Both the position numbers and the translations under genes were made by a program. Source: Prochlorococcaceae cyanobacterium jk18x1bzbins.87 (lineage in GTDB: Bacteria; Cyanobacteriota; Cyanobacteriia; PCC-6307; Cyanobiaceae). From it: a DNA stretch of 40,349 bases. Location of the stretch: NCBI GenBank assembly GCA_022826535.1, contig JAJDUS010000060.1:1-40349 (forward strand). Direction: 5' to 3'. The notes under the pieces are model-generated. The model was not told where the DNA came from, searched no databases, and was given only the letters and a program-made list of their open reading frames with translations. Below, one piece after another: positions 2,412 through 25,846 of the stretch; the first letter of the stretch is position 1; each line of letters starts with the position of its first letter.

Positions 2412-3955
2412 CCTCTTCAGCCGTGCCCCTTACCGAGTTCCGCCGGGATCTGATGGACGCACTGCCGGCTGATGTGGCCCAGGAGAATGAGGAGACCTCA
2501 GCCGCTCAACTCTATGTCCCCTGGAGCCACGGCAAGGCTCTGCGGCTGGAAAGTTCGCTGGTGATCGGTGCCCGCGGCGTGGGCAAATCGGTCTGGAGTC
2601 AGGCCCTGCAGGATCCGGAGCGATACAAGGTCCTGCCCCGCAATTTGTTCCCCTATCCGCTCCAGGTGAGCCCTGGCTTTGGCACCGCCCCCAAGCGGGC
2701 CCATTACCCGCCCCCGGAAACGTTTGAAGCCCTGCTGAGCCAGCACAACCACCCGGCCTACGCCATCTGGCAAGCGGTGCTTTGCCGCGCCCTTGCCGCA
2801 GCCATGCCGCAGGACAGCCATCAAAACATCCCCATTGCCAGGTGGCAGGACACGGTGGCTTGGGTGGTGGCGGGTCAGGGGGAGTCTGTAGCAGCGTTGA
2901 TTGAGCAGGCTGACAAGTGGTTTCAGGAGTGCAACAGGGGGTTTCTGCTGGTGTTTGATGCCCTGGATCGGGTCAGCAGCACCGGCCGCTGGCAGATTGT
3001 GGATCAAGCCATCCGGGATCTGCTGCGTGTGGTGCTGCAACTCAAGGCCAGCCGCCGGCTGCACGCCAAGGTGTTCCTGCGCACTGATCAATACGAACGG
3101 GGCAATTTTGCCCACATACCGGATATATCCAAGCTGCAGGCCACCCGCGTGGAACTCATCTGGTCCAGGATTGACCTGCACGGCCTGCTCTGGCAGAGGC
3201 TCACAAACGCCCCCTCCAGCACGTCCACAAGGGACAGGTTCAGAGCCTGGTGCCAAGATGAGCTTGCTGGTCAGCGCTCCTTGTTTCAAGCTGATCTGTT
3301 CAGGGATCCCTTGCCAACATCAACGGCCAGTCAAGGTGAGCGTTGGCTGTTGCCCAGAGTGCTACAGCAGGATGATCAACGCCAAAGAGCCCTCTTTGAA
3401 AAGCTGGCAGGCCCCTGGATGGGTAAGGACCGCCGCCGCGGTGTGCCCTACCTCTGGATTGTGAATCACCTTGCCGATAGCCAGGGGCAGACCAGCCCAC
3501 GATCCTTCCTGGCGGCCATTCGCCAGGCAGCGGAGGATTCCCTGCACCGCCATGGAGACCACCCGCTGGCACTCCACCATGAAAGCCTCAAGCGGGGTGT
3601 CCAGGCTGCCTCCGGGATTCGCATTAACGAGCTTGCCGAGGACCATCCCTGGATCAAGGCGTTGATGGGCCCCCTGCAAGGGCTCTCCGTTCCCTGCACC
3701 TCGGATCAGATTGAAAGCCGTTGGCAGGCGCAGTTTGGCGAGATCCCTGGCCAGGTGCCTGATCTACCAGGGCGGCTACCGGAGCGGCTCAGCAAACAGG
3801 GGATCACGGGAGTGATGGACTATCTGGAGCAGTTGGGGTTGATCACCTTGATGCGGGATGGGCGCATCAATATGCCCGATCTCTACCGTGTGGGCTTCCG
3901 TCTTGGTCGCAGGGGCGGCATCAAACCAGCCTTACGGAGTTCCCAAGCCACCTGA
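2408..3955 (+). CDS. GARGVGKS P-loop ATPase, third gene of the cassette
   Basis: I place the start at ATG 2408, which overlaps the preceding stop (ATGA), although the frame stays open seven codons further upstream. The product is 515 residues. Walker A is GARGVGKS at residues 54-61 and Walker B is FLLVFDALDR at 179-188. This looks like a STAND/KAP-type ATPase rather than an ABC or ParA protein. The C-terminal 150 residues contain a possible winged-helix-like segment (RLSKQGITGVMDYLEQLGLI). No nuclease or membrane segment was seen. Together with the two coupled genes upstream it forms a self-contained three-gene module; the ATPase call is firm and the function unknown. Confidence 0.82.
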   Translation: MTSSAVPLTEFRRDLMDALPADVAQENEETSAAQLYVPWSHGKALRLESSLVIGARGVGKSVWSQALQDPERYKVLPRNLFPYPLQVSPGFGTAPKRAHYPPPETFEALLSQHNHPAYAIWQAVLCRALAAAMPQDSHQNIPIARWQDTVAWVVAGQGESVAALIEQADKWFQECNRGFLLVFDALDRVSSTGRWQIVDQAIRDLLRVVLQLKASRRLHAKVFLRTDQYERGNFAHIPDISKLQATRVELIWSRIDLHGLLWQRLTNAPSSTSTRDRFRAWCQDELAGQRSLFQADLFRDPLPTSTASQGERWLLPRVLQQDDQRQRALFEKLAGPWMGKDRRRGVPYLWIVNHLADSQGQTSPRSFLAAIRQAAEDSLHRHGDHPLALHHESLKRGVQAASGIRINELAEDHPWIKALMGPLQGLSVPCTSDQIESRWQAQFGEIPGQVPDLPGRLPERLSKQGITGVMDYLEQLGLITLMRDGRINMPDLYRVGFRLGRRGGIKPALRSSQAT

Positions 3956-6796: not shown

Positions 6797-7954
6797 ATGG
6801 ATGCAAATTTGGAAAGGCTAGAGGACGGTGAAGGCACAGGGTTGGTGCAGAAGAGACAAGGGGAAGAGAGCAGCAAAAACGGTGGTCTGGCATGGGAAGA
6901 GGAGAAGGAAGAAATCCCCAGTGGCTTTTCCTATAACATTACAAGTTATGGGGCAGATTACACGGTTGATGGCATCGTCCGTCGTTTCCAGCAAAATGAT
7001 ATTTTTGTTCCTGATTTTCAACGTAGGCCCGTTTGGAAATGGCCCCAGTCATCAAGATTCATTGAGTCTCTTTTGCTGGGTTTACCAGTTCCAGGAATTT
7101 TTCTTTACAAAGAGAAAGATTCAGAGAGAATGCAAATCGTTGATGGACAACAAAGGATTTTATCTCTTGAGAAATTCTATTCTGGTGGGGAGGAATCTAG
7201 AAAGTGTAAACTCAAAGGCGATCATGAACATTTCCGCAATCAAAGCTATAAGGATCTCACACCAGAGTCTCGTCGGAAATTGGATAATTCTATTTTACAT
7301 GCTACCATTTTTGAACAACGCTCACCGGAAAATAATTGTAACAGTATCTATGAAGTTTTTGGGCGTATTAACACTGGAGGAACTTTACTGCACTCTCAAG
7401 AAGTTCGATCCTGCTTGTATTATGGTAAATTAAGTCGCTGGTTGCGAGAGTTCAACTCTCAAAATAAAGAGTGGAGAAGATTCTTGAATAATAGTAGCTC
7501 AGATTCCCATGGTGAAGAACTGATTTTACGTATCATTGCCCTCAAGCAAAATTTAGATGACTATAATTATCCTTTAAAACATTTCCTGAATGCATTCATG
7601 GAATCCAAGCGCAACCCCTCTCAGCAGTGGCTAGATTCCATAGAACAGTGGATTCATTGTATTTCTAAATTTGCTGGAAGAAACATTGATAAAGAGATAT
7701 TCTTTAGAAATCATCGTGTTGTTCCTGTGATCGCAGAAGCAATTTTAATTGGAATTTGGAATCGTATTGAAGAATTAAAAGGAAATGACATCTCAGAATT
7801 TAACTTTTCCAAACCGGAGATCCTACAAGATTCTGCCGCAAGGCTTCTCAAGGATCCTGGGTTTCAAAAGCTAACCAAGAATAAGACAACCAGCCTTGAA
7901 GCGGTCAGAGGGCGCATTGAAAAGGCAACGGCAGCCTTCAAGGAGGTTGTGTAA
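6797..7954 (+). CDS. DUF262 (ParB-like) protein, partner of the HEPN protein downstream
   Basis: The product is 385 residues. Diagnostic DUF262 motifs are FQRRPVWKW at residues 74-82, IVDGQQRILSL at 114-124 and FGRINTGGT at about 190-198. This is the GmrSD-type N-terminal ParB-like fold that can bind and hydrolyse nucleotides. The usual C-terminal DUF1524 HNH nuclease is absent; an RNase-like HEPN gene follows at once instead. The first 40 residues are acidic and lie in normal GC, whereas the rest is clearly AT-rich compared with the surroundings, which suggests recent acquisition. The DUF262 assignment is firm; an anti-phage role is inferred from the family and the partner. Confidence 0.88.
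   Translation: MDANLERLEDGEGTGLVQKRQGEESSKNGGLAWEEEKEEIPSGFSYNITSYGADYTVDGIVRRFQQNDIFVPDFQRRPVWKWPQSSRFIESLLLGLPVPGIFLYKEKDSERMQIVDGQQRILSLEKFYSGGEESRKCKLKGDHEHFRNQSYKDLTPESRRKLDNSILHATIFEQRSPENNCNSIYEVFGRINTGGTLLHSQEVRSCLYYGKLSRWLREFNSQNKEWRRFLNNSSSDSHGEELILRIIALKQNLDDYNYPLKHFLNAFMESKRNPSQQWLDSIEQWIHCISKFAGRNIDKEIFFRNHRVVPVIAEAILIGIWNRIEELKGNDISEFNFSKPEILQDSAARLLKDPGFQKLTKNKTTSLEAVRGRIEKATAAFKEVV
7940..7946 (+). promoter_or_regulatory. Strong ribosome binding site for the HEPN gene
   Basis: AAGGAGG lies eight bases before ATG 7955, inside the end of the DUF262 gene. The DUF262 stop TAA directly abuts that ATG. This arrangement fixes the start and shows coupled expression. Most other genes here have no clear Shine-Dalgarno, so this site stands out. 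Confidence 0.75.
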
Positions 7955-8404
7955 ATGACTTCCATTGCCCAAGAAAAAAGAGAAGAAATCATTGAGATCT
8001 TAAAACGGGAGAAGGAATCAGAAATTCCTGATTATCTGAAGTCAAGTTTAGACCATTATATTTGCGTTTTGATCAGTAGCTATCTTGAAAATTCATTGAG
8101 AAATATTATCTTAGATTATGCTGAAAGAAAATGTTCTAACCAATCTATTTGTAAATTTGTTAACTCATCTTTAGGAAGAATGAGAAATCCAAATTATCAA
8201 AATATAAAAGATCTTTTGGAGAAATTTGACTTGAAGATTAAGTTAGAAAATAGACAAAGAGAAGCAATCGAGAGTGTCTACACCAACAGGAACGGAATTG
8301 TTCATAGTGAGTCCCCAAAAGGCCTATCCTTGTCAATGGTAAAGGAATACTTTGAGACGATCTGTAGGGTTATCGATATCATCAATCAAACTTTTAACGA
8401 CTGA
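7955..8404 (+). CDS. HEPN-domain protein with RNxxxH motif (MAE_28990/MAE_18760-like)
   Basis: The product is 149 residues, all helical in appearance. Residues 112-117 read RNGIVH, the RN-x-x-x-H signature of catalytic HEPN ribonucleases. The region around 28-55 (SSLDHYICVLISSYLENSLRNII) fits the first two helices of the MAE_28990/MAE_18760-type HEPN family, which is known to pair with DUF262 proteins. The start is fixed by AAGGAGG upstream. The gene is AT-rich like its partner, so the two travel together. It likely cuts RNA when released or activated by DUF262; the motif is seen, the activity is inferred. Confidence 0.87.
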   Translation: MTSIAQEKREEIIEILKREKESEIPDYLKSSLDHYICVLISSYLENSLRNIILDYAERKCSNQSICKFVNSSLGRMRNPNYQNIKDLLEKFDLKIKLENRQREAIESVYTNRNGIVHSESPKGLSLSMVKEYFETICRVIDIINQTFND

Positions 8405-8833: not shown

Positions 8834-10108
8834 ATGCAACTTGACCATGTCCATCTGGAAAACTTTCGAGCAAAGCAGGCTGTCAGTCTGACGCTTGGCT
8901 CCAGGCTAACCCTGCTTATGGGGGAAAATGGCTCCGGGAAAACCACAATCCTCGACGCCATTGCCCTTGCCCTTGGTGCTGTCCTTACTTATTTGCCAGA
9001 TCAGAACGTCAAAGGAATCAAATTGAGGGACAGCGATATCCTTCAACAAGACGGACGAAAGTTTCCCTATACCCTTATTCGAGCCAAATGTACCAGTAAT
9101 GGACCAACATGGGATCTTTTGCGCAAACGTGACTTGACTCAATTGACAAAAAACAAGATTCCACAACAGCGAAAGGGAGTTCGTGAGTTACGTGAATATC
9201 TGAATACGGAAATAATTAAGCCATGGTATAAAGGAGAGAATTTCGACTTACCAGTTATTTCTTATTATGGTGTCAGTCGCGCACTTGTTGATGTGCCAGA
9301 GCGTCGCAGGAACTTTCATCGGGATTCGGGCAGGTTTACAGCATTAGCTGACTCTCTCAATGCCACCAGCCGTTTTCGGTCTGCCTTTATCTGGATCTGT
9401 GAAAAGGAAGATGAAGAGCGCCGTCTTCGCTTGGATGAGAAGAAGGATATTAACGCCAGGCTACCAGAATTGGAGGCTGTACGCCGGTGCATCTACAAGC
9501 TTTTGCCTGGCACCAGCAATCTCCGCACAAAGACCAGGCCACTCCGCTTTTTGATCACACACCATGGTCAGGAGCTTGAGATTGCTCAGCTTAGCGATGG
9601 TTACAAGACAATGCTAGGCCTGGCCATTGACCTCGGCTCACGAATGGCTTCTGCCAACCCTCATTTGCCAGATCCCTTGGCAGCAGAATCAATTGTTTTG
9701 ATTGACGAGGTGGACCTTCACCTTCACCCAACCTGGCAGCAGCGCGTTATCAGTGATCTCCTACGCACATTCTCCAAAACACAATTCGTCCTGACGAGCC
9801 ATAGTCCCATACTGGTTGAAAGCGTCAATAACGTATTAAAGCGTCATGCCATTGATCATCTCCTGGAAAAAGCACCTCCCGAAGCACTTCAACCCGAAAT
9901 CAAGAATCTCTATCCACTTGATCCAAAGTGTACAAGAGTCTATAGCATGACGAAAGATTCCCATGGGGACTTGCTGGATCCAGAGGAGGGCTTGACAGGG
10001 GATACTCTCATTGAATCCTTCAACGAAGTGTCTACTATATTCGAGCATATGGGCGATTTTGAGGACGAGAGAAGACAGTCCTCCTCACCAAAGGAGGATA
10101 CCCCATGA
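8834..10108 (+). CDS. SMC/OLD-like AAA ATPase coupled to a nuclease gene
   Basis: The product is 424 residues. Walker A is GENGSGKTT at residues 30-38, the ABC-type signature is LSDGYK at about 252-257, Walker B is VLIDEVDLHLHP at about 289-300, and an H-loop follows in TSHSPI. It is therefore a small SMC/RecF/OLD-like ATPase without an obvious nuclease domain. The stop overlaps the ATG of the next gene (ATGA at 10105-10108), which ties it to a putative PD-(D/E)XK nuclease. ATPase-nuclease pairs of this build are frequent in phage defence. The gene itself looks intact although its partner is broken. Confidence 0.87.
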   Translation: MQLDHVHLENFRAKQAVSLTLGSRLTLLMGENGSGKTTILDAIALALGAVLTYLPDQNVKGIKLRDSDILQQDGRKFPYTLIRAKCTSNGPTWDLLRKRDLTQLTKNKIPQQRKGVRELREYLNTEIIKPWYKGENFDLPVISYYGVSRALVDVPERRRNFHRDSGRFTALADSLNATSRFRSAFIWICEKEDEERRLRLDEKKDINARLPELEAVRRCIYKLLPGTSNLRTKTRPLRFLITHHGQELEIAQLSDGYKTMLGLAIDLGSRMASANPHLPDPLAAESIVLIDEVDLHLHPTWQQRVISDLLRTFSKTQFVLTSHSPILVESVNNVLKRHAIDHLLEKAPPEALQPEIKNLYPLDPKCTRVYSMTKDSHGDLLDPEEGLTGDTLIESFNEVSTIFEHMGDFEDERRQSSSPKEDTP

Positions 10109-10752
10109 ATCTGCCACCAAACGTCGCCCGCTGCGTCTGTTTAGATCACGACAATCCCCACCGACTCTGCTTTGGCAACAATGGTTTCAAAGAGAAAAGG
10201 CAACAAGTTAAACTCAATGTTCAGAGAAGTGAAACTGTCAAAGCCCTTGTTCTCGATGGCTGTCTACTATCTGATCGGACCAGAAAGAGTTGTGATGGTC
10301 TTTTCCTCTTTTGCAAAAACAACAAAAGGGAGCCACGAAAAATCGCCCCTTCCTCGCCTGGAAAAACCTGCTGACCTGGGCAATCCCTCTCCAGGACTAA
10401 CTTTCTCATGGTGAGACAACGTCCTACAGAAGGGGTTGCCCAATTTTTCGTGGTTCCCAAAACTTACATTCTACTTATTGAACTCAAAGGCACACATGTT
10501 GAAGATGCTTTTGAGCAGTTGGCTTCTGTGAAAAATGAACATCAAGAATATGCAGATCTTTGCAGATATATCAGAGAAAATACGGAAGGTCAGATTATTG
10601 AAAAATGCTTCGTTATTATCAATGGAACAATGGAAAAAACAGTTAAAGTTAAACTAGAAAGAAGCTTGAGAATTAAAGTTGGAATCATCACTCAACAGAA
10701 GACAAAGCGTGATGCTGCCACACCAGATTTACGCAAGTACTTACGAATTTAA
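10105..10752 (+). pseudogene. Putative PD-(D/E)XK nuclease gene split by a MITE
   Basis: The frame starts at ATG 10105 (overlapping the ATPase stop), runs into the MITE at 10328, meets a single in-frame TGA at 10372-10374, and stays open to the stop at 10750-10752. Removing the MITE plus one AAAA target copy (135 bases) restores a continuous 170-residue protein across the junction, reading FCKNNKTYILLIELKG. That segment has CDGL followed about 16 residues later by IELKG, which fits a D...ExK nuclease core. The AT-rich 3' half matches a gene acquired with its ATPase. The insertion keeps frame, so only the one stop inside the MITE inactivates it. The nuclease call is inferred from the motif alone. 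Confidence 0.78.
10328..10458. mobile_element. 131-bp MITE with 20-bp inverted ends and AAAA target duplication
   Basis: The left end GGGAGCCACGAAAAATCG (10328-10345) pairs with the reverse complement of the right end, GGGAACCACGAAAAATTG (10441-10458), with two mismatches. AAAA occurs at both 10324-10327 and 10459-10462 as a direct target duplication. There is no transposase inside. The flanking gene reads through perfectly once the element and one AAAA are removed, so the boundaries are well supported. The helper transposase family is not in this window. Confidence 0.88.
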
Positions 10753-11494: not shown

Positions 11495-14400
11495 TTAATC
11501 AGTGAGCAGATGTTGAGTTACCAGTGATCGAGTAATCATCTCACCACGTCTGGAAAGTAGTTGAATGTTTTCTTCAGACATTGCAAAGAAATTGACTGGA
11601 TAAGCAATCACGTCATCGCGGTCAATCCAGTTAGCAGATTTAAGAGATACATTTTTATCAACTTTATCAATCTGACCAAGATGGACATAGACAAAATCAT
11701 CAATACGTCCAGCTCTTACATAGTCATGTAGGTGTTTCTTTGTTGCATCTTGGACCTTGCGCATAATTGCTGAGACGACTTGGAGCATCCGATTTGGCAA
11801 TCTTATGGGCATGTCATGACCAGTAAACTGTCCTGTACCAGCATCGCTTACAATGATAATATTGGGATCAAAGCTAATCTTACTGATCTTAGGATCCCGT
11901 CCAGGTTCCATAACACTTACACCAAGATTGTCAAATACGCCTCCATCAGTAATAATCACGCGATGTGCTTTTGTTTTGACTTGATCATTTTCTGTCTTCT
12001 TAAAAGTGATTCTCCAGTCGTATGGCGGAAGCAGTGGCGGATAGGCAGCAGAAGCCATAACTGCATCCGCTACCCTCAGATCACTAGCTGGTGCATAGCC
12101 ATAACGCCAAGAGCCAAAGCATTTATTACTCATTCGGAACGCGGTACCAGTTCTGAGCTCGCATGCATTGAAGACAATGGACTTGTTCTGGCGTGTGGGT
12201 GCATCGCAGTTCTGAGTACCTACTAAATCACTAACAGCATCAGCCATAACATGCGTGCGTGAATAGTCGTTTGGTATGTCAACCGCCATAAGATTCAATA
12301 GGAATCGAATGAAGCGACCAGGATGAAGAAGCTTTATTAGTGCAGGCTTGAACAAACCACGACGAAGGAACTTGAGAGCATTTCTATCAATCTCTGCAAA
12401 TGGAGCGTTAGTATAACCAATTAAACCTGTCATTACCGACCCGCCAGACACACCAGAGATGACATCAACATCATTAAGTAACTGGAGATCTTCAAGAGCA
12501 CGCAATGTGCCGAGATGGAAGGCAACAGCGCGGGATCCGCCACCGGATAGGGACAGTCCAGTTCTCTTGCCAAGGCGCGCTACGGGGGGTGGTATCGTCA
12601 CTCCCCCACGAGGAGCTCTGTTGATTCCAGTCTGCTGTGAAGCTGATTCGCGCCTCTCGAACATGTAAGCCCCAATTTGTGGTTGTTGTTTGGCAGCATA
12701 TCCGACAATAATCATCAAATGGAAGCCATCGACATGGGCGCCAGTAAAGATGGAGTCGATGGCTTTATGGTCCATGGCACTGGGCTGAGGAGCACTGGTT
12801 GGATGGGAATGCCAAGTGCCAATGTAGCACACGATCTCATGGGTTTTTTCTTTGTAACTTTTGCACAGATCTTCTGTACCATTAGTTCCACATATGAAGT
12901 GCTCTTCAGAGAATTTACTATCTTGTGGCGGGCCACTAACATTATTTATCCATACGATATCCAGAGTTTCATCAAAGTATCCAAATAGCAGACCACCTGT
13001 TTCATGATTTATAGATCGTTCGCGGGCTCCAGTACGAATCCAGCCGGTCATATCTCGCCAAGCATGTTGTGACATTCGGAAATCCAATCCATCAGCAGTC
13101 CAGCGAATATCTGGACGAAACTTGAAGTGATGTTCGCGGTGCTCAGGTATTTGAGAAAACAGAAAACCACTTGCGTCATTATCTTTCTCAGCAAACGCCT
13201 TAGCAAAAATATTGAGCGCTCGTGCTGAAAGCGCTGCAACATCAGCGTGCGAACCAACAAAGGTTGGATCAGAGCAGCCAGGTTCTGGTTGCCGAAGCCC
13301 CTGCAAGTTATCTGACATCCAGAAAGCCTTGACCCAATCGCTAAGCCAGTCCCGCTTCATTGCTGCCAGTCCAAGACGCCGAAGCACATCAAGGGGGCCA
13401 GCACGGAACCCTGCAGGGATTGTTACGGCAACCGCATGTTGTACGTTGGCGCTAACCATCACAGAGGCGACTGGAATCTGCGATACGCTCTCTTTGAGGA
13501 TAGATTCAAGCTTTGTTCTCACCCTCAGGGAAGCAGTCGCATCAATCACCACATCAATACCAGTGCCCCAATCTGATCTTGTTAGAGTCTCAGAAATAAT
13601 ATTCTCAATTTGTACTCTAACTATTATGTGAGGGTAAATTCGTTGAATTCGACATGCAAGTGCAACAGCTTTCGCATCGTTAATGTCAGACGTTAAGTAG
13701 TTTTGGCGCACCAGCAAACCCGGAGTTACTCTAGCTTTATCATAAAGAGAGAGTTCAGCAACTCCCGCTCGTGCGAGGTGTTCAGCGATAAGCCCTCCAA
13801 TAGCTCCACAGCCCCAAAGGGCTACACGCTTACCGCGAAACCAGTCCATCGCGCTGTCTTTATCACGCTTGATTATGATCTCTGGACGATTTTCGATGAC
13901 ATGACACCAGCGTACACGCGCTTCCTTACGCCATTGCATTAAAGGATTAAACATGGACTGAATAAGTCTCTCGATTTCCTCTGGAGTATCTTGGCCTTGA
14001 TAGTTGCTACTAATTTCGCAAGCAATAGATGCATTACGCAGCATGGTGACATCATGCGCTTCAATTTCCCAAAATGTGAGATGTTGCTGACGTTGCGTGA
14101 AATCTCCAGCAATACCACGTGAGGGTGTGCCAATGCCAATATACAAAGAAGTATTCTTGGCAATGCGCTCGGATACAAGCATGAGGTGTACAAGGAAGCG
14201 GCTGCTTGCAATGCCCTTAGATTCAAGATAGAGAAGTAAAGAATCAACAGTTCTTGGATACTCAAAGGGAAGCTCAAAATCCAGCAGCAATGTTGGTGCA
14301 AATAGTTGATTTTCTTGTAAAGAATATGTAGATTCCCAGGAATTAACCTCAAAAAGGCCAAGCCTAGATTGAGTGAGTATCGCAGCACCAAACCATGGCC

Positions 14401-14899
14401 ATTGGGCACGACTGGGCGTGTCAGCATTTACACAGATTGATACTGGGGCAACTGTGTAGGCAACGGGAGGATGGAGTGGACCTTCTGGATGGTCAAGCTC
14501 GTTGCGTGCGCCACGACGAAGCCAGCTATCAAGCTGCTTGATAAATCCGAACATGCCCTGGGAAGGATTCCATTGGGCGTCTGGGGATAAGTATAGGCAC
14601 AATTGCTGTCCCCATTGCACGTGAGGAAACCCATGAAATCGGCTATGGACAGTACGTGCTATGGGTGGGCTAAAAGGGAAATCTGCTGATATCAACAGTT
14701 TAATACATTCGCTATCATTCAACGGCAGCCCATCTTCAAAACATTCGTAATGAGTGCAATCAATCGAAATATAGATAGTCAGCCAACTTCCAGAGTTCTC
14801 ACCCTCCTCAATCTCAACGATGTAGAGGGGAGAACGATCAGTTTCTGCGATCCTCTGTAGTTGATCGCGTGCAGTTTTCTGGCCATCAGTGAGTGCCAT
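11495..14899 (-). CDS. E2-E1-JAB-patatin fusion: ubiquitin-like ligation enzyme joined to a phospholipase
   Basis: I choose ATG 14899 (TTG 14911 is possible), giving 1134 residues. Domains in order: an E2-like fold at about 1-140 with catalytic-type C101 in QLCLYLSP followed by W-x-P; an unassigned region to about 345; an E1/ThiF Rossmann fold from about 357 with GCGAIGG (363-369), an R-N pair in VRQNY and a candidate catalytic C542 in PGCSDPTF; a JAB/JAMM protease at about 600-750 with E633, H697, H699, S707 and D710 (HETGG and HSHP...S-x-x-D); and a patatin-like phospholipase at about 780-1134 with oxyanion loop SGGGSR (785-790), nucleophile S818 in GVSGG and D985 in TDGG. All key residues are present. 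It overlaps the MBL gene upstream by 14 bases, so the two are co-translated. AT-richer than its neighbours. The domain calls are confident; the pathway is inferred. Confidence 0.9.
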   Translation of the reverse strand: MALTDGQKTARDQLQRIAETDRSPLYIVEIEEGENSGSWLTIYISIDCTHYECFEDGLPLNDSECIKLLISADFPFSPPIARTVHSRFHGFPHVQWGQQLCLYLSPDAQWNPSQGMFGFIKQLDSWLRRGARNELDHPEGPLHPPVAYTVAPVSICVNADTPSRAQWPWFGAAILTQSRLGLFEVNSWESTYSLQENQLFAPTLLLDFELPFEYPRTVDSLLLYLESKGIASSRFLVHLMLVSERIAKNTSLYIGIGTPSRGIAGDFTQRQQHLTFWEIEAHDVTMLRNASIACEISSNYQGQDTPEEIERLIQSMFNPLMQWRKEARVRWCHVIENRPEIIIKRDKDSAMDWFRGKRVALWGCGAIGGLIAEHLARAGVAELSLYDKARVTPGLLVRQNYLTSDINDAKAVALACRIQRIYPHIIVRVQIENIISETLTRSDWGTGIDVVIDATASLRVRTKLESILKESVSQIPVASVMVSANVQHAVAVTIPAGFRAGPLDVLRRLGLAAMKRDWLSDWVKAFWMSDNLQGLRQPEPGCSDPTFVGSHADVAALSARALNIFAKAFAEKDNDASGFLFSQIPEHREHHFKFRPDIRWTADGLDFRMSQHAWRDMTGWIRTGARERSINHETGGLLFGYFDETLDIVWINNVSGPPQDSKFSEEHFICGTNGTEDLCKSYKEKTHEIVCYIGTWHSHPTSAPQPSAMDHKAIDSIFTGAHVDGFHLMIIVGYAAKQQPQIGAYMFERRESASQQTGINRAPRGGVTIPPPVARLGKRTGLSLSGGGSRAVAFHLGTLRALEDLQLLNDVDVISGVSGGSVMTGLIGYTNAPFAEIDRNALKFLRRGLFKPALIKLLHPGRFIRFLLNLMAVDIPNDYSRTHVMADAVSDLVGTQNCDAPTRQNKSIVFNACELRTGTAFRMSNKCFGSWRYGYAPASDLRVADAVMASAAYPPLLPPYDWRITFKKTENDQVKTKAHRVIITDGGVFDNLGVSVMEPGRDPKISKISFDPNIIIVSDAGTGQFTGHDMPIRLPNRMLQVVSAIMRKVQDATKKHLHDYVRAGRIDDFVYVHLGQIDKVDKNVSLKSANWIDRDDVIAYPVNFFAMSEENIQLLSRRGEMITRSLVTQHLLTD

Positions 14900-16040
14900 G
14901 GCCAAATCCAACTGCTGTTGAAGGTGCTACGGCACCACCAGAGGCCTTGAGCGCATCCTGCATTGACTTGCTGGATTTGCCGCTGCTACCGACATAGGAG
15001 AATCCAGTCTTTTTGACCTCAAAGATGACAGGTTTTGGATTCTCCTTGTCAGGATGCTCGTGAGTGCAAATAAATTCGTTAGGGACGATACTTTGGTACC
15101 GCTTCTTCGCCTTAGCATGTGGTGGGTTGTCTCCAGAACTATTGGACTTTGGCACTGGCTCAGAGCTGGAGACAACATATCCAGGATTGAGTGCAGCATC
15201 GCCGATATCACCGACAATATCCTCTTTTAGCGTCTCTTTCTCTTCGTCTTCATTTTTCCAATACATGACGGACTTTGAGCAATGATGGGGTGCTAGAAGA
15301 ACATTCCAGGTCAATGTATCAGCCTTGCTGCGGTTAAAGATCCGTCGGATAATTGGATAGCTGAGATCACCCATGAGTAGCGCATTGCCACTGGCTTTGC
15401 CGTTAAATAGGGAAATCTGGAATGCAAGGCTGCAGTCGTTACGATCACCGAAGCTGTCATCCTTGAACGGCGCATGCACAAATGCCTTAAAGACGTGAGA
15501 GCAGTCAGTGCTGTCAAGAGTTGTGATTGTCTTTCCTGGAGTCGTTAAAAGCTCTTTTGGAAAGTTTTTGAAGGGGTCTTCATTCAGCAGGTCATCATAG
15601 CCGATGATGCGAACCCGATCACCGCTACCGGGATTACCATCTGCTTTGATAGTTAGTTTGACACGTCGAATTGCCTCGTCATAAAATGCTTTTGCGTCAT
15701 CACAGAGGTCATTGTTTTCCTGGAACTCACGGAATATGCGCGGTGACATCCAAAGCTCAGAGATCTTTACACGACCATTCAAGTCCTTGAAGCCTTGACA
15801 GTGGTCCTGATCGGGATGCGTGAGTGCGAATACTGACAGGTATGGCTTTCTGTCAAGTGTTGGCAGGATCTTGATTAGCTCATCAATTACTGGCCAAGCT
15901 GGATCATCCTCATCTTCAGACTTGGCCATGTGATGCAGATCTACCTGTAGGTAGACTTTCTTGTCAACACGGATGGTCGTGCTGTCACCGTTGCCGACTG
16001 GCCAAAAGATGAGTCCTTGTTCAGGGGGTTGAATGGACAT
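14886..16040 (-). CDS. Metallo-beta-lactamase-fold protein, partner of the E2-E1-JAB-patatin gene
   Basis: The product is 384 residues from ATG 16040. The metal-binding motif HPDQDH (H75, D77, D79, H80) is the HxDxDH form of ComEC/MBL-type hydrolases. MGDLS at 223-227 supplies the bridging aspartate and APHHCSKS at about 250-257 a further histidine. No membrane segment is seen, so unlike ComEC it is cytoplasmic. MBL-fold genes are, as I recall, reported next to fused E2-E1-JAB genes in prokaryotic ubiquitin-like systems. The C-terminus ends in ...KASGG followed by a 15-residue tail, which could resemble a pro-ubiquitin tail (speculative). First gene of the operon; its 3' end overlaps the next gene. 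Confidence 0.86.
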   Translation of the reverse strand: MSIQPPEQGLIFWPVGNGDSTTIRVDKKVYLQVDLHHMAKSEDEDDPAWPVIDELIKILPTLDRKPYLSVFALTHPDQDHCQGFKDLNGRVKISELWMSPRIFREFQENNDLCDDAKAFYDEAIRRVKLTIKADGNPGSGDRVRIIGYDDLLNEDPFKNFPKELLTTPGKTITTLDSTDCSHVFKAFVHAPFKDDSFGDRNDCSLAFQISLFNGKASGNALLMGDLSYPIIRRIFNRSKADTLTWNVLLAPHHCSKSVMYWKNEDEEKETLKEDIVGDIGDAALNPGYVVSSSEPVPKSNSSGDNPPHAKAKKRYQSIVPNEFICTHEHPDKENPKPVIFEVKKTGFSYVGSSGKSSKSMQDALKASGGAVAPSTAVGFGHGTH

Positions 16041-16178: not shown

Positions 16179-19100
16179 TTAGGTAGATGGGTGAAAGCGC
16201 CAAGCTGACTGGCATTCCCCCAACACCCCCCCAATCCGCCTCGCTACACCAGCAAAGTGCAACACCTCCTCAGCCAGTAGGGGACGCCCCAACACCCCCT
16301 GCTCCCGATAGGAGAGCCATTTCTTGAGCACCTGGTACCCCCCCAGCTTGTAACGCCAGACGGGAAGCGGCACGTTGCGCCAGAAGGCATGGTCGTTCAG
16401 GTAGATGTCCAAGGTGGTTTGGCCAGTTAGGGGAAGTGTAGCATGGCCCCTTGCCATGGCGCTGCGCTCTTCTGGGGTGAGGGGCCGCTCCACCACCCGC
16501 CCCTGTCCAGGCATGACGGCATCGCCTTTGCCGGTGTGGCCCCATCCTGCCGTGACGGCAAAATCCCCACTGGCCATGTTGTGGCCATCGCGGGTGGCGG
16601 GCACAGCGATGACGGCCATCTCAGGGCGCAGGGGCGCTTTGGTGACGCCAGGGACGGGAGCCTCACAATCCAGCAAGGCCGCCAACTGACGACCACGGGC
16701 AGCGGAACGGGCCAACGCCGCAGCATTTTCAGCCGCGCCCTTGGGCCAACCGGGCAGGGGGATGCGGGGCCAGCCCATGCGCAGAGCGCCAGCATTGGCT
16801 GGCCGGTAAGCGGGATCATGGAGCACGGCAAGCACATGGTGGAATAGATCTTCCACGCTGGCGCCAAGGGCAGCGAGATAATTCTGGGCGGCGATTGAAA
16901 GGTTGGGACGGCAGGCTTGGCCATTGGGGTTGGTGATGTCGTCATCGCGAAGCCACATTGGAATACACGTGGCACTCCGATCCATCAAATCGATGCAGCC
17001 CATGCGTGAGATCACTTGCGGCGGCAACCACCCCCGGCGGGGCTTCTGCTGTGCAACTATCCACAGATTCCCCTTGAACACATGTGGCCAATAGTCAGCC
17101 CGTTTTTCATCCAGTAGTTTGGTCTCTGCTTCCCAGTAGAGGTAGCGGTTATCGAAGGGCCGATAGGCAAAGCGGACAAAACCAGCTTCGTTGAGACCAC
17201 CACGCTTCAGCAGTGTGTCTCGTACTGGGCGGGCATCAAACCGGGCTGTTTTTTGCATGACTTTTGGGTAACGCTGTGCAATCTCTTCATGGCTTAGGGT
17301 TGGGTTAAAGTAATCAGCCACCCGTGCCTGTAGCCGCTCCAGATCCACGTCAACAAGAAAACTGTCACGGCTAGTCTTGACACCTGGAAACGACTTCGGA
17401 AATAACTCAGGCAGCGAAGGCCATTCAAAATAGTCCCGACTAATCTCCGTTTGAATAAAGGGTAGGCCAAGCGGCAAAATCGGTTGGATTTCTTTGTAGG
17501 TGGTATCTGGCGCCGCTTCTGTCGTTTCCAGCAGTTCTTCTCGCTTGGTCTCTGGCTGGCCCCACAGTTGACGCAGTGCAATGGTATCAGTTGGCTTGTG
17601 CTGTTGCTTGCGCACCAGGGTGGCAATGGCTGTGCCCACCTGGATGCCTACGGATTCTCCATCCACTGTGAACACACTGCCATCGGGTTCTCCCTCTGGT
17701 GTTTTTCCACCTTTACGCACATCCCCATTCAGACAGTCAATCCGAACCGCATCAAACACCTCCAAAAACCGTTCCCGCATCCCCGTGAAGGATAAACCAT
17801 CCAACCAGGAATAATTGGAAATGAAGCAGATCACCCCCTGCCCGGTTTTCTCGGCAATGCGCCGTTCCGCCATCCGAAAGAAACGCACGTACAAATCATT
17901 GAGCCCTTGCCCTTCCGGGCGGCGTACCCGGCGGGTTTGGCGGTAGGCGTTGGAGAGGTCCCGCTCCTCCGCCACGGCCATGCCGGCAAAGCCGTTGTAG
18001 GGGGGATTGCCCAGGATCACCAGGATGGGTTGGGCTTGTTTCACTTGCTCGGCCCGGTCCCGCTCCTCCTCCAGTTCGGGGAAGGGTAACGGCTTGTTGG
18101 TGCGGGGTTCCCAGCCGGTGAGGGCGTTGGTGAGGAAGACGCCTGCCCGTTCCTTGCCGGTTTCCCCCAGGGGGGCGTCCAGCTCTTGCAGGGTGAGGCC
18201 CACTTGCAGATGGGCAATCACAAAGGGCGCCGGCATGATCTCGAAGCCAAACACCCGTCCCGTGGCGGCGGCTTTCACCCGCGCCCCTGCCAACGCTCCC
18301 AGGCCTTGGCCCGTCAGGTTGGCGGCGATGCGGCGCAACACCTCCGCCAGATAGGCGCCGGTGCCACAACAGGGGTCCAGCACCACCACGTTCTCGGCTG
18401 CCAGACCGTCCGGGATGTGCAGGTCCTGTTTCAGGGCGTTATCCACCTGGGCCACCATGGACCGCACCACCGCCGTGGGGGTGTACCACACACCCAACTC
18501 TTTCCGCAGGGCCGGATCAAAGGCTTCCAGGAAGGGTTCATAGAAGTAGGGCACCGCCTCGCCGGTGTTGAAGCGGGAGAAGAAGGCGCCCCGGTCCACC
18601 CGGGCCAGGGCCGCGGCGGTCCAGTCCAACACCTCCACCAGGTCCAGGGGTTGGAGCCGACCCGGCTGGGCCAGTTGTTGGAACAGGGCCGCCAACACCG
18701 GCGAGCGCAGATGCCACACCGCCGTGCGCCAGTCGAAACGATCTTCTGCAGTTCCCCCTTGCCGACCCCATAACACCCAGGCGGAAAAGATGCCGTAGAA
18801 GAGGGTTTGCACCAGGGTGGAGCGGAAGAAGCGGACGCCTTTTTCCCCGTCAAAACGCACCCCCAGGGCCTCCTCCAAGGCGGAGCGCACCGCCGCCAAC
18901 TGGGGGGCGTCCCCCGCCGTTTCCACCCGGGCCAGGCCGTCCCGGGCATAGGAGGCCAACAGCCAGGCCAGATCTTTCGGTTCCGCCAGGGCGGCGCGGT
19001 GGCACAGGGCACGGGCCAGATATTCCCCCAGCCCGGCGCCGGCGGTGCGGGCAAAGGCCTGTGGTGTGTCCAGGCCGTGCCAGAGGGCCTCGGCGCTCGC

Positions 19101-19547
19101 CGCCAACTGGAAACTTTCCAGCTTGCCGGGGCGGCCTGCGCTGTCCTCCCCCACCAACACAAAGTGGCGCAGATTGGTGACCAACACCAGCCGGTAACGC
19201 TCCCAATAGCGGCTCACCTGGTCGCTGGTTGCCGTGAGCCATGCATCATCATTGGCCCTTTTCACCTCCACCACCCCCCGCTCCGGGATTTGACCCTCCC
19301 GTGGCGCCCCTCTTTGCAGTTGCCTGGCCCCATAGAGGCCAAAATCAGGATGGCCCGCCCCCTGATTGGCCAGCTCCCCCACACAGAACACCTTGGGCCT
19401 GAGGGTCGCCCCCACCCCATTGAGGAGGGTGGCCAGGGGACCGTAGCTGGAGCGCTCCCCCATGGCGCCACCGGAAGCGTACACCTGCTGGAGCTCGGCG
19501 CAATAGGCGGCCACCGCCGTGGCCAATTTGTCGCTGGTGGCCGTCAT
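16179..19547 (-). CDS. Single-chain type IIG-like restriction-modification enzyme (nuclease-MTase-specificity)
   Basis: I start at ATG 19547 (MTATSDKLATAVAAYC), although the frame is open about 30 codons upstream; the product is 1122 residues. Near the N-terminus PDFGLY (67-72) followed by VVEVK (E94, K96) forms a PD-(D/E)XK nuclease core. A helical linker leads to the N6-adenine methyltransferase with motif I DPCCGTG at 391-397 and motif IV NPPY at 514-517. The C-terminal part contains FAYRPFDNRYLYW, typical of the type ISP C-terminal specificity domain. No helicase domain lies between nuclease and methyltransferase, so it is type IIG-like rather than type ISP. It looks intact and has normal GC. 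It probably cuts and modifies DNA on its own. Confidence 0.85.
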   Translation of the reverse strand: MTATSDKLATAVAAYCAELQQVYASGGAMGERSSYGPLATLLNGVGATLRPKVFCVGELANQGAGHPDFGLYGARQLQRGAPREGQIPERGVVEVKRANDDAWLTATSDQVSRYWERYRLVLVTNLRHFVLVGEDSAGRPGKLESFQLAASAEALWHGLDTPQAFARTAGAGLGEYLARALCHRAALAEPKDLAWLLASYARDGLARVETAGDAPQLAAVRSALEEALGVRFDGEKGVRFFRSTLVQTLFYGIFSAWVLWGRQGGTAEDRFDWRTAVWHLRSPVLAALFQQLAQPGRLQPLDLVEVLDWTAAALARVDRGAFFSRFNTGEAVPYFYEPFLEAFDPALRKELGVWYTPTAVVRSMVAQVDNALKQDLHIPDGLAAENVVVLDPCCGTGAYLAEVLRRIAANLTGQGLGALAGARVKAAATGRVFGFEIMPAPFVIAHLQVGLTLQELDAPLGETGKERAGVFLTNALTGWEPRTNKPLPFPELEEERDRAEQVKQAQPILVILGNPPYNGFAGMAVAEERDLSNAYRQTRRVRRPEGQGLNDLYVRFFRMAERRIAEKTGQGVICFISNYSWLDGLSFTGMRERFLEVFDAVRIDCLNGDVRKGGKTPEGEPDGSVFTVDGESVGIQVGTAIATLVRKQQHKPTDTIALRQLWGQPETKREELLETTEAAPDTTYKEIQPILPLGLPFIQTEISRDYFEWPSLPELFPKSFPGVKTSRDSFLVDVDLERLQARVADYFNPTLSHEEIAQRYPKVMQKTARFDARPVRDTLLKRGGLNEAGFVRFAYRPFDNRYLYWEAETKLLDEKRADYWPHVFKGNLWIVAQQKPRRGWLPPQVISRMGCIDLMDRSATCIPMWLRDDDITNPNGQACRPNLSIAAQNYLAALGASVEDLFHHVLAVLHDPAYRPANAGALRMGWPRIPLPGWPKGAAENAAALARSAARGRQLAALLDCEAPVPGVTKAPLRPEMAVIAVPATRDGHNMASGDFAVTAGWGHTGKGDAVMPGQGRVVERPLTPEERSAMARGHATLPLTGQTTLDIYLNDHAFWRNVPLPVWRYKLGGYQVLKKWLSYREQGVLGRPLLAEEVLHFAGVARRIGGVLGECQSAWRFHPST

Positions 19548-20050
19548 GGGCTGGGGTGGGGGCCAGCTTGAGGCTACCCTGGTTGAGCCAGGGACGCAGA
19601 CCCTGTCTTGAGGATTTACATGGAGCGAAGCTGAGCCCACTCCGGCATACAGCCAGACACGATTCCGGGATGATGGGCAGCAGGGAGTTCTGCCCAGAAC
19701 CTGGTGGCTTGATGATAGTCACTTATGCCAGTTTAATTTCTGGCACAGATAATGTTGATAACCTGGAGTTGATGCCTTGAAGAACATTAGCGTTAAGTTG
19801 CTTTGAGTTCATTGGACCAATTTAGCTTGTGGCACACTCTACACACATTCCATGGGCATAGAGTGTGTGACTTCTATGAACATGCCATGTTCTGCCTATG
19901 CACGTGTTACGTCGCGCCATTTCTGCCACGCCTTTATCGACCCTTGACTACGCTTGCAACTTTTCCTTAGGGGCTGAAAATTTTAATTCTTAAATAAGGT
20001 GAAGATTTACTTCAAACGGTAACTTTACCATCATTATCTTTCTAGTCACC
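19548..20050. other. Intergenic region with a hairpin, no gene seen
   Basis: Between the type IIG start (minus) and the small RHH-like gene (plus) there is no supported coding frame. The right 300 bases are AT-rich and would hold the divergent promoters. It contains the perfect 9-bp inverted repeat listed separately. Confidence 0.5.
19833..19867. promoter_or_regulatory. 9-bp perfect inverted repeat
   Basis: CACACTCTA at 19833-19841 is mirrored by TAGAGTGTG at 19859-19867, with 17 bases between. There is no T-run, so it is more likely an operator or RNA hairpin than a terminator. It lies about 180 bases before the small RHH-like gene, a possible autoregulator. Confidence 0.4.
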
Positions 20051-22606: not shown

Positions 22607-24403
22607 TCAAGCTGTGCCACCGGGCTGGGCCGCCTCGGCCACCGCGGCAATGGCATCCAACTTGGTGGTCACTTCCGGGTCAATGTCTTCCGGTGAGGGA
22701 ATAGAGGCCACCAGTTTATACAGGTCTTTCTTGCTCATTTCATTATGCATTCCTAGTCTGTGTGAATAGGCCTTAAAGATAGGCACAAGCACATCGTCAC
22801 TGGCTTTGGTCTTGGCGTCCCAGGGTGAACCCTTACCAAGGGAGCGGAGGGCATTGGTGATTTCCTCAATCGCTTCGTTCATGGCATTGCGTTGTGTCTC
22901 TGCCTGAATGGTAAGCTGTTGAAGTTTTGCTTGGCTCCCGGCTGTAGGACTCACATGGGACTGAAGGATTTCCTGGGTACAGAAATAATTTTCAATTTCA
23001 TTTCTTTGCCACATGAGAACCTGTAAGGTTCCCTGGGGAGACTCTCCGTTGTCATGCTGCAGAAGATGACTGTCCTCTTCAAGGTAGTCAAAGAGAGCCA
23101 AGCCTCTGAGGGAAGGACTGGCTTCCCGGAGACCATAGTAATGGCGCCGCGCTTCCTTCACTGTATTGCCCACATACTTGACAAAAGGCTTGGCAAGAGC
23201 CTCCTGGGCAGCGGTGTGTTCCAGTTTCTCGGCAAAGGCCTTGAGAATGAGGAAATCCGTTGAACCTTCCAGATACAAAATCCAGCCGGTTTGCTCCGCC
23301 TGGTAGTAGTCCTCAAAACCCAGAAATGTCAGCGCTTTGAGAACTTCGCTTTTTTTCCCCTGGGCCAAGGCGTGGGGATGGCCAACACAGGCAATAATCT
23401 GATCCTGCCCTGTGGCCGCTTCATTCAATAACACCTCTGAATGGCTGGCAATCATAATTTGACTATTGCTTTTCTCAGCGAGCTCCTTAATGCATGTGTA
23501 GATCTGCCGCTGGCGAAGAATCTCCAGATGGGCATCCGGCTCATCCAAAAGCACCACTGCCCCAGGATTGGAATACATATAGACCAGGATCAGCAGAGTT
23601 TGTTGTAGACCTCTTCCGCTGGAGGAGAGATCCAGTTCCAAGGCTTTCCCCTTCTTGCGAGAATGCTTCTGCTGGTATTTCATGGTGATCTCACCTCTTT
23701 CCTCCAGATAACGAGGCGCATTGAGCTGCACCCCAAAAAGCGTGTCAATCTGGTGTGTCAATTCAGCCCATTCCTTGGATTGTTTCTGATTCACAATATA
23801 ACAAAGATTCCGCAACACCTCGGCGGTGCGGCCTTCACCGATGCGCACATTGAGGGCACCTGGATCCAGACGGGTCTCAATGGCGGCCAGGCCAGACATG
23901 GGCGGCAAGAAGGCCACCTTCACCCCAGCGGCCTGCTCAGGAACCGGCATCCGCTCCTGGGGGGCATCACTCCGTCGCAGGGGACGGCAGTAAAACGATT
24001 CCGGGTTGGCATAGTCGAATTCCAAACCACACTCCCAGGGGCCTTGGTGATCCACGCCACTGACAATCAACTCAATGCGAATGTTTTTGGTCTCCTGTTT
24101 GTCGTCTTCGCTGCGACTGGTGAAACGGGTTTGCAGATCTCGCCAGAGGAGGTTGGCTTGGGGATGGGGAATGGTGAGCAGGTCTTGACGGTTGATGGTC
24201 ACCCCAGGTCGTTTGCGGGCCTGGCTCTGGCGCTCTGATCGCTTCTCCTGCCAGCGTTGTAGACCAATGGTCCACAGGGCCAGCGCTTGCAGGAGGGTGG
24301 TTTTGCCGGAGTTGTTGGGGCCAATGAGCACCACGGGGTTCCCCAGGTCAATCTCCACATCCTCAAAGCACTTGAAGTTACGAGCTCTCAGCTTGGTGAG
24401 CAT
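22607..24403 (-). CDS. OLD-family ATPase with TOPRIM nuclease domain
   Basis: The product is 598 residues from ATG 24403. Walker A is GPNNSGKTT at residues 28-36, the ABC signature SSSGRG at about 260-264, Walker B VLLDEPDAHL at 284-293 and the H-loop ASHSE at 319-323. The TOPRIM domain starts with LYLEGSTD (E379) and includes LALFDYLEEDS. This is the layout of OLD/GajA-like proteins that combine ATPase and nuclease. No UvrD-like partner adjoins it, so it is a single-gene (class 1-like) OLD. A copy of its first 13 codons recurs at 26532-26570, beyond the type II R-M genes. It looks intact. Confidence 0.88.
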   Translation of the reverse strand: MLTKLRARNFKCFEDVEIDLGNPVVLIGPNNSGKTTLLQALALWTIGLQRWQEKRSERQSQARKRPGVTINRQDLLTIPHPQANLLWRDLQTRFTSRSEDDKQETKNIRIELIVSGVDHQGPWECGLEFDYANPESFYCRPLRRSDAPQERMPVPEQAAGVKVAFLPPMSGLAAIETRLDPGALNVRIGEGRTAEVLRNLCYIVNQKQSKEWAELTHQIDTLFGVQLNAPRYLEERGEITMKYQQKHSRKKGKALELDLSSSGRGLQQTLLILVYMYSNPGAVVLLDEPDAHLEILRQRQIYTCIKELAEKSNSQIMIASHSEVLLNEAATGQDQIIACVGHPHALAQGKKSEVLKALTFLGFEDYYQAEQTGWILYLEGSTDFLILKAFAEKLEHTAAQEALAKPFVKYVGNTVKEARRHYYGLREASPSLRGLALFDYLEEDSHLLQHDNGESPQGTLQVLMWQRNEIENYFCTQEILQSHVSPTAGSQAKLQQLTIQAETQRNAMNEAIEEITNALRSLGKGSPWDAKTKASDDVLVPIFKAYSHRLGMHNEMSKKDLYKLVASIPSPEDIDPEVTTKLDAIAAVAEAAQPGGTA

Positions 24404-24405
24404 GG
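24365..24405. repeat. 41-bp direct repeat, copy 1 (5' end of the OLD gene)
   Basis: This stretch equals 26532-26572 in 39 of 41 positions, same orientation. It covers the start codon and codons 2-13 of the OLD gene. The type II methyltransferase and endonuclease lie between the two copies. Confidence 0.9.
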
Positions 24406-24466
24406 CAACAGGCCTCCCTTTAGCCCGGAGTTTGGCTTACACTAGGGCCGTGGAACGCCTAGAGCC

Positions 24467-24622
24467 ATGGCGTTGCTCCACCAACCCGGCGCCCAGTTCC
24501 GTCACCAGCATCTGCTGCGTCAGCGCCTGGAGGGATTACTGCAGGAGGGCAGGATCACAGATGAGGCAGTGGCGTCCCTTTTGGCGGGGTCGGAGGACAT
24601 CTCAGCAGATATCAGGGCCTGA
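24467..24622 (+). CDS. Possible small protein (51 aa)
   Basis: ATG 24467 to TGA 24620 encodes 51 residues with a predicted helical stretch (LLRQRLEGLLQEGRITDEAVASLLAG). It lies divergently upstream of the OLD gene and ahead of the methyltransferase. Codon use is like that of local genes. No family recognised; it could be a small regulator of the R-M module or chance. Confidence 0.4.
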   Translation: MALLHQPGAQFRHQHLLRQRLEGLLQEGRITDEAVASLLAGSEDISADIRA

Positions 24623-24784
24623 TCAACCTTCCTTTCTAAGGTGTTGGCTGCTGAGGGTAATGCCGGTCTGCTGAGCAATCACCTGCAGAGACTGACTGGG
24701 TGGGTCCTGCTGGAGAGTTGGTCACGGCTGTAATACATAGGTTCTAAAGTGTTTAAGTTGACTTGCCGACACAGAAAAACGACC

Positions 24785-25846
24785 ATGGGCATCGATCCAA
24801 AAACGCCGCAACTCCCTGGGTTTAATTTCCCGCACCGCACCTATGGCCACTCTCTCATGGTGCATGCCGACTGCTTCCATTGGTTGAGGAAGATGCCGGA
24901 AAACTCCATTGACGCCGTCGTCACTGACCCGCCCTACGGCGTCCGGGAATACGAAGCGCGGGAGCTTGAGCAACGGCAGTGCGGCAAGACGGGCATCTGG
25001 CGCATCCCACCCTCCTTTGACGGCAATAAGAGGGCGCCGCTGCCCCGTTTCACAGCACTGGATCACCAGGAGCGCCAGGCAGTACGCCATTTCTTCCGTG
25101 AATGGGCAACCATCCTGCTGCCCAAGCTGAAACCCGGAGCCCATGTTTTCGTTGCCTGCAATGCCTTCATGTCCCAACTGGTGTTCTCCTCCCTGATGGA
25201 CGACGGGCTTGAATTCCGCACCCAGATCATCCGCTTGATCCAGACCCTGCGCGGTGGCGACCGGCCCAAGCTAGGGGAGCAGGAGTTCCCGGACGTGTGC
25301 TCGCTCCCCCGGGGCAGCTATGAGCCTTGGGGTCTTTTCCGCAAGCCCCTTCCCAAGGGAATGCCCCTGCGTGAGTGCTTACGGACCCATGGGACCGGGG
25401 GACTACGGCGCAGGATGGACGGCAAGCCGTTCCTTGACGTGATTCCCAGTGAGAGAACGCCTCGGCGCGAGCGCTCCATTGCCAACCACCCCAGCCTAAA
25501 ACCGCAGTCACTGATGCGTCAACTGGTGTGGTCAGCCTTGCCTTTGGGTGAAGGCATCGTCGTGGATCCCTTCATGGGCTCCGGATCCACCATCGCAGCA
25601 GCAGAGGCAGTGGGCTACCACTCCATTGGCATAGAACGGCACAGGGACTACTACACATTGGCTGGCAAGGCGGTCCCCCAACTCCATGCACTGCCAACCA
25701 ATGGGCCAACAGGTGGGTTGCCCTCCTGCAACGGGCAGGCGCAGCTAGAGTTTGGGGCCAGAACTCCTGTAGAGCCAGTTGCTCACCATCTTGCCGTAGC
25801 CACTGGGGTTGATGGCGGCTGTGATCGTGCGGCGGCTGGCAGTTGA
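24785..25846 (+). CDS. Type II DNA methyltransferase, beta class (N6-A or N4-C)
   Basis: I use ATG 24785 (MGIDPKTPQL), not the GTG at 24749. The product is 353 residues. Motif IV DPPYG comes early (about residues 48-52) and motif I DPFMGSGST late (about 262-270), the beta-class order. The target-recognition region lies between. The protein should end soon after YYTLAGKAVPQL by family length, yet the frame runs on for about 50 residues whose last third is antisense to the end of the endonuclease gene. That tail may be an acquired read-through. Pairs convergently with the endonuclease next to it. Confidence 0.88.
   Translation: MGIDPKTPQLPGFNFPHRTYGHSLMVHADCFHWLRKMPENSIDAVVTDPPYGVREYEARELEQRQCGKTGIWRIPPSFDGNKRAPLPRFTALDHQERQAVRHFFREWATILLPKLKPGAHVFVACNAFMSQLVFSSLMDDGLEFRTQIIRLIQTLRGGDRPKLGEQEFPDVCSLPRGSYEPWGLFRKPLPKGMPLRECLRTHGTGGLRRRMDGKPFLDVIPSERTPRRERSIANHPSLKPQSLMRQLVWSALPLGEGIVVDPFMGSGSTIAAAEAVGYHSIGIERHRDYYTLAGKAVPQLHALPTNGPTGGLPSCNGQAQLEFGARTPVEPVAHHLAVATGVDGGCDRAAAGS

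Follow-up and report, generated by a model that had tools for sequence, protein, structure and literature searches.

A patatin-clade 6A-MBL operon in a cyanobacterial defence island, and the glycine tail of its MBL-fold protein as a candidate site of conjugation

The DNA analysed here, a stretch of 40,349 nucleotides that we call the window, carries an operon in which the gene for an MBL-fold protein precedes that for a single polypeptide joining E2, E1, JAB and patatin domains. On its profile matches, the operon is a 6A-MBL system, operon type 6a of Iyer et al. 2006. We propose that it is probably an anti-phage operon of a patatin-bearing 6A-MBL clade, which would work in the manner of type II CBASS, with no cyclic-nucleotide synthase and with the MBL protein as the modifier. 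Computational analysis establishes the domains and their active sites, the operon, the repeated fusion and splitting of its parts, the exchange of effectors and the conserved glycine tail of the MBL protein. It is this tail that is new here; the E2-E1-JAB plus MBL system itself has already been named.

Results

Architecture of the operon

Both genes lie on the reverse strand, the MBL gene upstream, and they overlap by 14 nt when the fusion gene is read from its ATG start. The fusion gene is an open reading frame with no internal stops, encoding 1138 residues from TTG14911 or 1134 from ATG14899. Residues are counted here from TTG14911; an earlier note on this DNA counted from ATG14899, and its numbers are 4 lower. 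The features are as follows.

11495–14911, reverse strand: E2-E1-JAB-patatin fusion protein, a Cap2-Cap3-like triple module plus phospholipase (ORF, Pfam, NCBIfam, AlphaFold fold match)
14414–14812, reverse strand: E2 (UBC-like) domain, residues 34–166 (Pfam Prok-E2_A, 5.2e-20)
14597–14599, reverse strand: codon of the E2 catalytic Cys105 (invariant in 25/25 fused homologues)
13466–13840, reverse strand: E1 (ThiF-like) adenylation domain, residues 358–482, with nucleotide loop GCGAIGG (Pfam ThiF, 3.8e-17)
13274–13276, reverse strand: codon of the E1 crossover-loop Cys546, motif PEPGCSxPTFxGS (invariant in 25/25)
12704–13018, reverse strand: JAB/JAMM isopeptidase domain, residues 632–736, with E637, H701xH703, S711 and D714 (Pfam Prok-JAB, 4.9e-9; PADLOC JAB, 4.6e-24)
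11915–12556, reverse strand: patatin-like phospholipase domain, residues 786–999, with dyad S822/D989 and oxyanion GGGSR (Pfam Patatin, 2e-19; fold match to the CapV filament 9kej)
14886–16040, reverse strand: MBL-fold protein, 384 residues, with a ComEC-type metallo-hydrolase core at 1–350 (NCBIfam NF058524; AlphaFold)
14889–14978, reverse strand: disordered C-terminal tail of the MBL protein, residues 355–384, ending -AVGFG-HGTH, the proposed conjugated tail (low pLDDT; conservation)
14901–14912, reverse strand: V-G-F-G codons of the tail (residues 377–380), immediately 5' of ATG14899 (codons mixed in 70 homologues)

That one polypeptide holds all four domains, as the earlier note had it, is confirmed by the intact frame and by the Pfam matches, all of which score above their gathering scores; patatin homology runs past the Pfam domain up to the C-terminus at 11498. 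The residues that had been picked out as catalytic (C101, C542, E633/H697/H699/S707/D710, S818 and D985 in the older numbering) are C105, C546, E637/H701/H703/S711/D714, S822 and D989 in ours. Together with GGGxR at 790–794 they are invariant in an alignment of 25 fused sequences, in which the JAB-patatin linker varies freely.

In an AlphaFold model of the fusion protein (pLDDT 81), Cys546 sits in a disordered loop (535–550). The top PDB match of the model is Enterobacter cloacae Cap2 complexed with its CD-NTase, and the best structural match of the patatin part is CapV. The MBL protein was modelled with an overall pLDDT of 88. Among PDB sequences its profile turned up nothing beyond spurious ankyrin designs and marginal matches to ComEC, so that a fold search was needed; this placed the beta-lactamase-like domain of ComEC (9ic4) closest, followed by the phosphorylcholine esterase Pce. 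The protein has no beta-grasp fold. At PADLOC, it is linked to the LmuA, RTasMBL and PDC-M48B MBLs.

Both proteins pass the NCBIfam cut-offs for 6A-MBL: the fusion protein matches NF058523 ('6A-MBL cap2_3') with 353.3 bits (cut-off 320), and its partner matches NF058524 ('6A-MBL enzyme') with 310.2 bits (cut-off 220). The earlier assignment to the E2-E1-JAB plus MBL operons of prokaryotic ubiquitin-like type stands. NF058523 scores 657–673 bits on the type of L007 and L122 (the Ruegeria/E. coli-plasmid lineage) against 353 on the window, a gap that puts the window in a divergent clade, distinct from the seed lineage of the family.

According to the ORF list and Pfam, the operon holds the MBL and fusion genes only, with no beta-grasp ubiquitin-like protein or third small gene. 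Taken literally, the earlier statement that a separate ubiquitin-like protein is missing is correct; the MBL protein, however, has the look of a modifier, as argued below. SMODS, the CD-NTase domain, had no match at E <= 10 in the genome and none among the window genes scanned; the reported lack of a CD-NTase is upheld, and a hidden one was rejected, as the genome-wide search found none.

Defence-island neighbours

A Type IIG/ISP-like restriction-methyltransferase gene lies directly upstream of the MBL gene (16179–19640, reverse strand). The same neighbour, 87% identical, is found at L040, a locus from a congeneric 'Prochlorococcaceae cyanobacterium', so restriction-modification and 6A-MBL sit together in the genus. 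The forward strand carries, at 1053–3955, the PADLOC candidate defence pair PDC-M28B/PDC-M28C (ParA-like plus NTPase; strong matches); at 6797–8404, a GmrSD-N/NsnA (PD-T4-2-like) protein followed by a HEPN RiboL-PSP protein, likely a defence pair; and at 8834–10752, a PtuA-like ATPase with a partner frame (10105–10752). This partner has one in-frame stop near 10372, is not recognisable as PtuB and may be a pseudogene. An OLD-like AAA ATPase (reverse strand) and an N6/N4 DNA methylase (forward strand) at 22607–25846 belong to the same island. The defence setting claimed in the earlier note is thus supported by Pfam and PADLOC. An anti-phage role of 6A-MBL, which comes from the NCBIfam name and from this island context, is putative.

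Fused and split forms

Scanning GTDB species genomes with the MBL alignment gave 80 loci, to which viral contigs added two and a separate plasmid search seven, 89 in total. Nine were set aside, being cut by a contig end or having a ligase too divergent for the search. The remaining 80 comprise 24 with the four-domain fusion, 50 in which E2-E1-JAB is followed by a separate patatin gene, commonly overlapping the ligase gene by 4 nt, and six with no downstream patatin. Operon order and gene overlap are kept in about 80 loci from many phyla. The fusion occurs in Cyanobacteriota, Pseudomonadota, Binatota, Dadabacteria, Myxococcota, Acidobacteriota, Planctomycetota, Chloroflexota, Actinomycetota and Rhodothermota; at L040 it is 92% identical to that of the window. 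The MBL protein is 86% identical in G901, the sole congeneric genome found with the system, which matches L040. Sampling the phylum of the window gave matches over the cut-off in 1 of 386 genomes, and sampling that of L078, a Rhodobacter, in 7 of 398. The system was also considered as phage-borne, and this was rejected: phage records gave one weak match, to the E1 region only, besides the two viral contigs.

On both trees the fused and the separate state are intermingled; the starred branches call for no fewer than two to three changes, and parsimony counts four to seven. Fused and split patatins are homologous throughout and form a lineage separate from CapV; the CapV of locus L009 joins well away from them, its branch having a length of 10, and the placement of such long branches is unsure. 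The architecture is not unique to the window. The earlier emphasis on an effector covalently part of the ligase holds for this protein; with 24 fused against 50 separate loci, however, fusion is a variant of packaging and not by itself a new mechanism. Repeated fusion and splitting of patatin and ligase supports a direct physical coupling of the two.

The effector slot

Patatin is the usual third component of the 6A-MBL clade to which the window belongs. In L061, L069, L070 and L071, transmembrane proteins stand in its place. In L071 this is PDC-M48A (PADLOC); in the other three it is a protein of about 229 residues that is predicted to cross the membrane three to four times and carries a common HNxEYGFxRNL motif, and a relative lies upstream of the MBL gene in the viral contig L121. 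The family had no Pfam or PADLOC match, and no NCBIfam match for those members scanned. Its genes are:

L061, 11448–12134
L069, 11456–12139
L070, 11482–12168
L121, 7284–7970

This exchange of a phospholipase for membrane proteins is as expected if the slot holds membrane-attacking effectors. Some 6A operons have no obvious effector; patatin is therefore not obligatory.

Other departures from the common layout were seen. A Burkholderia glumae plasmid (L143, 4531–9774) carries a longer 6A-MBL variant, made up of MBL, E2-E1-JAB, a transmembrane protein and a second MBL that has no glycine tail. The patatin gene is broken into two frames on a Rhizobium plasmid (L003, 8234–9422), as is the MBL gene in a Dadabacteria MAG (L052, about 8897).

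The glycine tail of the MBL protein

The tail closes with P-x3-V-G-F-G. Among 60 MBL sequences, the others being 43–86% identical to that of the window, Gly380 is present in 60/60, and Gly378 and Pro373 each in 92%, whereas the linker columns 346–372 have a mean identity of about 40%. The final glycine is followed by 0–6 variable residues. G[FYH]G with 0–6 trailing residues ends 73 of 81 non-redundant MBLs, and the other eight keep YG, FG or RAG; near the end of the proteins encoded at the same loci, the motif was found in 0/75 E2-E1-JAB proteins and 0/45 patatins. Since the PDC-M48B MBLs intended as a control yielded one locus in 299 genomes, three neighbouring MBL genes served as the tail-less control. 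These other MBL-fold proteins, encoded at three of the loci, have acidic C-termini with no glycine motif.

In a divergent lineage of 6A (E. coli, Klebsiella, Acinetobacter, Burkholderia and others) the tails are different, again with a near-terminal glycine: -PRAG, -PRAG-VINQ, -MRAG, -RVG, -GHG, -SHG-SD and -GYG-AEAI. The residues preceding the glycine thus vary by lineage. The CBASS CD-NTase of locus L009 ends in -GRAG.

Discussion

Comparison with known systems

The window operon resembles the 6A-MBL operons in having E2, E1 and a C-terminal JAB in that order in one protein, with an MBL gene adjacent. As described by Iyer et al. 2006, operon 6a usually has two genes, with neither effector nor modifier; the window operon differs from this layout by its fused patatin. 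The name '6A-MBL' was not met in the literature searched.

The closest parallel to our proposal is type II CBASS, in which the C-terminal Gly or Ala of a CD-NTase that has no beta-grasp fold is taken up by Cap2 as a thioester and conjugated (PMC10097602). The two share a Cap2-like E2-E1, a Cap3-like JAB, a patatin effector and a partner enzyme with a flexible glycine tail. They differ in several respects. First, an MBL enzyme stands in for the CD-NTase. Second, Cap3 and the effector are fused to Cap2. Third, the patatin is of a lineage apart from CapV. Fourth, the conjugated Gly or Ala of CBASS is C-terminal, whereas the tail glycine of the MBL protein is usually followed by one to six residues. 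Bil and Bub likewise employ E1, E2 and JAB/DUB enzymes in defence, but they have dedicated beta-grasp ubiquitin-like proteins, of which the window operon encodes none.

A different likeness is with Atg8/LC3, a modifier whose tail, -[F/Y]-G-x(1-5), is trimmed to a single glycine. The MBL protein has the tail form of these modifiers, not their fold, and lipid conjugation is only a possibility here.

Proposed mechanism

From the conserved tail glycine, the CBASS precedent and the structural match to Cap2 with its CD-NTase, we propose the MBL protein as the modifier that this system conjugates, its 'missing ubiquitin'. Thus, the E1 domain would adenylate the C-terminal glycine of the MBL tail (-VGFG), the E2 domain would then carry the thioester, and the MBL protein would play the part of ubiquitin. 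The simplest reading of the JAB domain is that it serves both maturation and removal: it would first trim the 0–6 residues past the tail glycine, and later detach the MBL protein from its targets. Conjugation may position or activate the MBL enzyme, a ComEC-type metallo-hydrolase by its predicted fold. Infection would tip the balance so that membrane damage by the patatin phospholipase either kills the infected cell or arrests it; the slot is filled here by a patatin fused to the ligase, and elsewhere by a separate gene or a transmembrane protein. The further suggestion of the earlier note, that phage reverse the conjugation, found no support.

Alternative readings

The MBL protein might instead be the main killer, a ComEC-like DNase that is inactive or off target until its tail is processed or conjugated, with patatin as a second effector. 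Its best fold match is indeed the nuclease domain of ComEC, PADLOC links it to LmuA, RTasMBL and PDC-M48B, and the JAB of the partner protein is a protease-fold domain. There is also a precedent in the MBL pro-nucleases of Hachiman, AVAST, Lamassu and DRT (HamM, Avs1a), in which a ComEC-like MBL lies upstream of a protease-domain partner; in the Hachiman and AVAST cases they are pro-DNases that proteolysis activates, in the part of PMC12799240 that we draw on. That same part, however, places the Hachiman/AVAST cleavage in active-site loops, assigns it to a trypsin-like domain and describes no glycine tail, whereas the partner here is a JAB with E1-E2. What is conserved in the window MBL is a glycine at the extreme C-terminus, accompanied by a complete E1-E2 pair for which a simple pro-nuclease would have no need, and nearly all loci of the clade have a patatin or transmembrane protein. 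We therefore hold this reading to be rather unlikely as a whole, although conjugation could plausibly activate or position a DNase.

Quite improbable, in our judgement, is a ubiquitin-like modifier encoded elsewhere in the genome, with the MBL tail only a docking peptide for E1-E2-JAB. Most E1s act on beta-grasp proteins, and the operon encodes none. An invariant glycine with a short variable extension is, however, the signature of a processed modifier and not of a docking motif; moreover, the operon is a unit across many phyla, so that such a partner would be needed everywhere.

More speculative, and given little credence by us, is a fully Atg8-like version, in which, once JAB had trimmed the -[F/Y]G-x tail of the MBL protein, E1-E2 would join its glycine to an amino group of a membrane lipid (or to a membrane protein), with the fused patatin acting at the same surface. 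Ligation, its reversal and lipid cleavage would then form one membrane-attack switch.

A DNA-level reason for keeping the tail is suggested by the position of the VGFG codons just 5' of the start of the fusion gene, where they overlap its start region, but it is very hard to reconcile with codon usage. The first tail glycine is encoded by GGA 23, GGC 17, GGG 16 and GGT 14 times in 70 homologues, all four codons occur at both glycines, Phe is TTC or TTT, and the spacing from glycine to start differs among loci. Such mixing points to selection on the protein and rules out an overlapping ribosome-binding site as the cause. Finally, the fusion could have been an assembly artefact, since the window is one contig of a 2.49-Mb, 145-contig draft, but the junction, for which residues 750–780 had been singled out as suspect, is in frame in 24 other contigs, including the independent congeneric genome of L040, and we give this practically no weight.

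Implications

We thus favour the MBL protein as the modifier of a patatin-clade 6A-MBL system. Since 2006, operon 6a has stood as an E1, E2 and JAB set with no identified modifier, and the glycine tail of the MBL protein is a candidate to fill this gap. If this is true, type II CBASS would be one case of a broader theme, in which E1-E2 modules attach an immune enzyme of whatever kind through the tail of that enzyme itself, in company with exchangeable killers such as patatin or transmembrane proteins.
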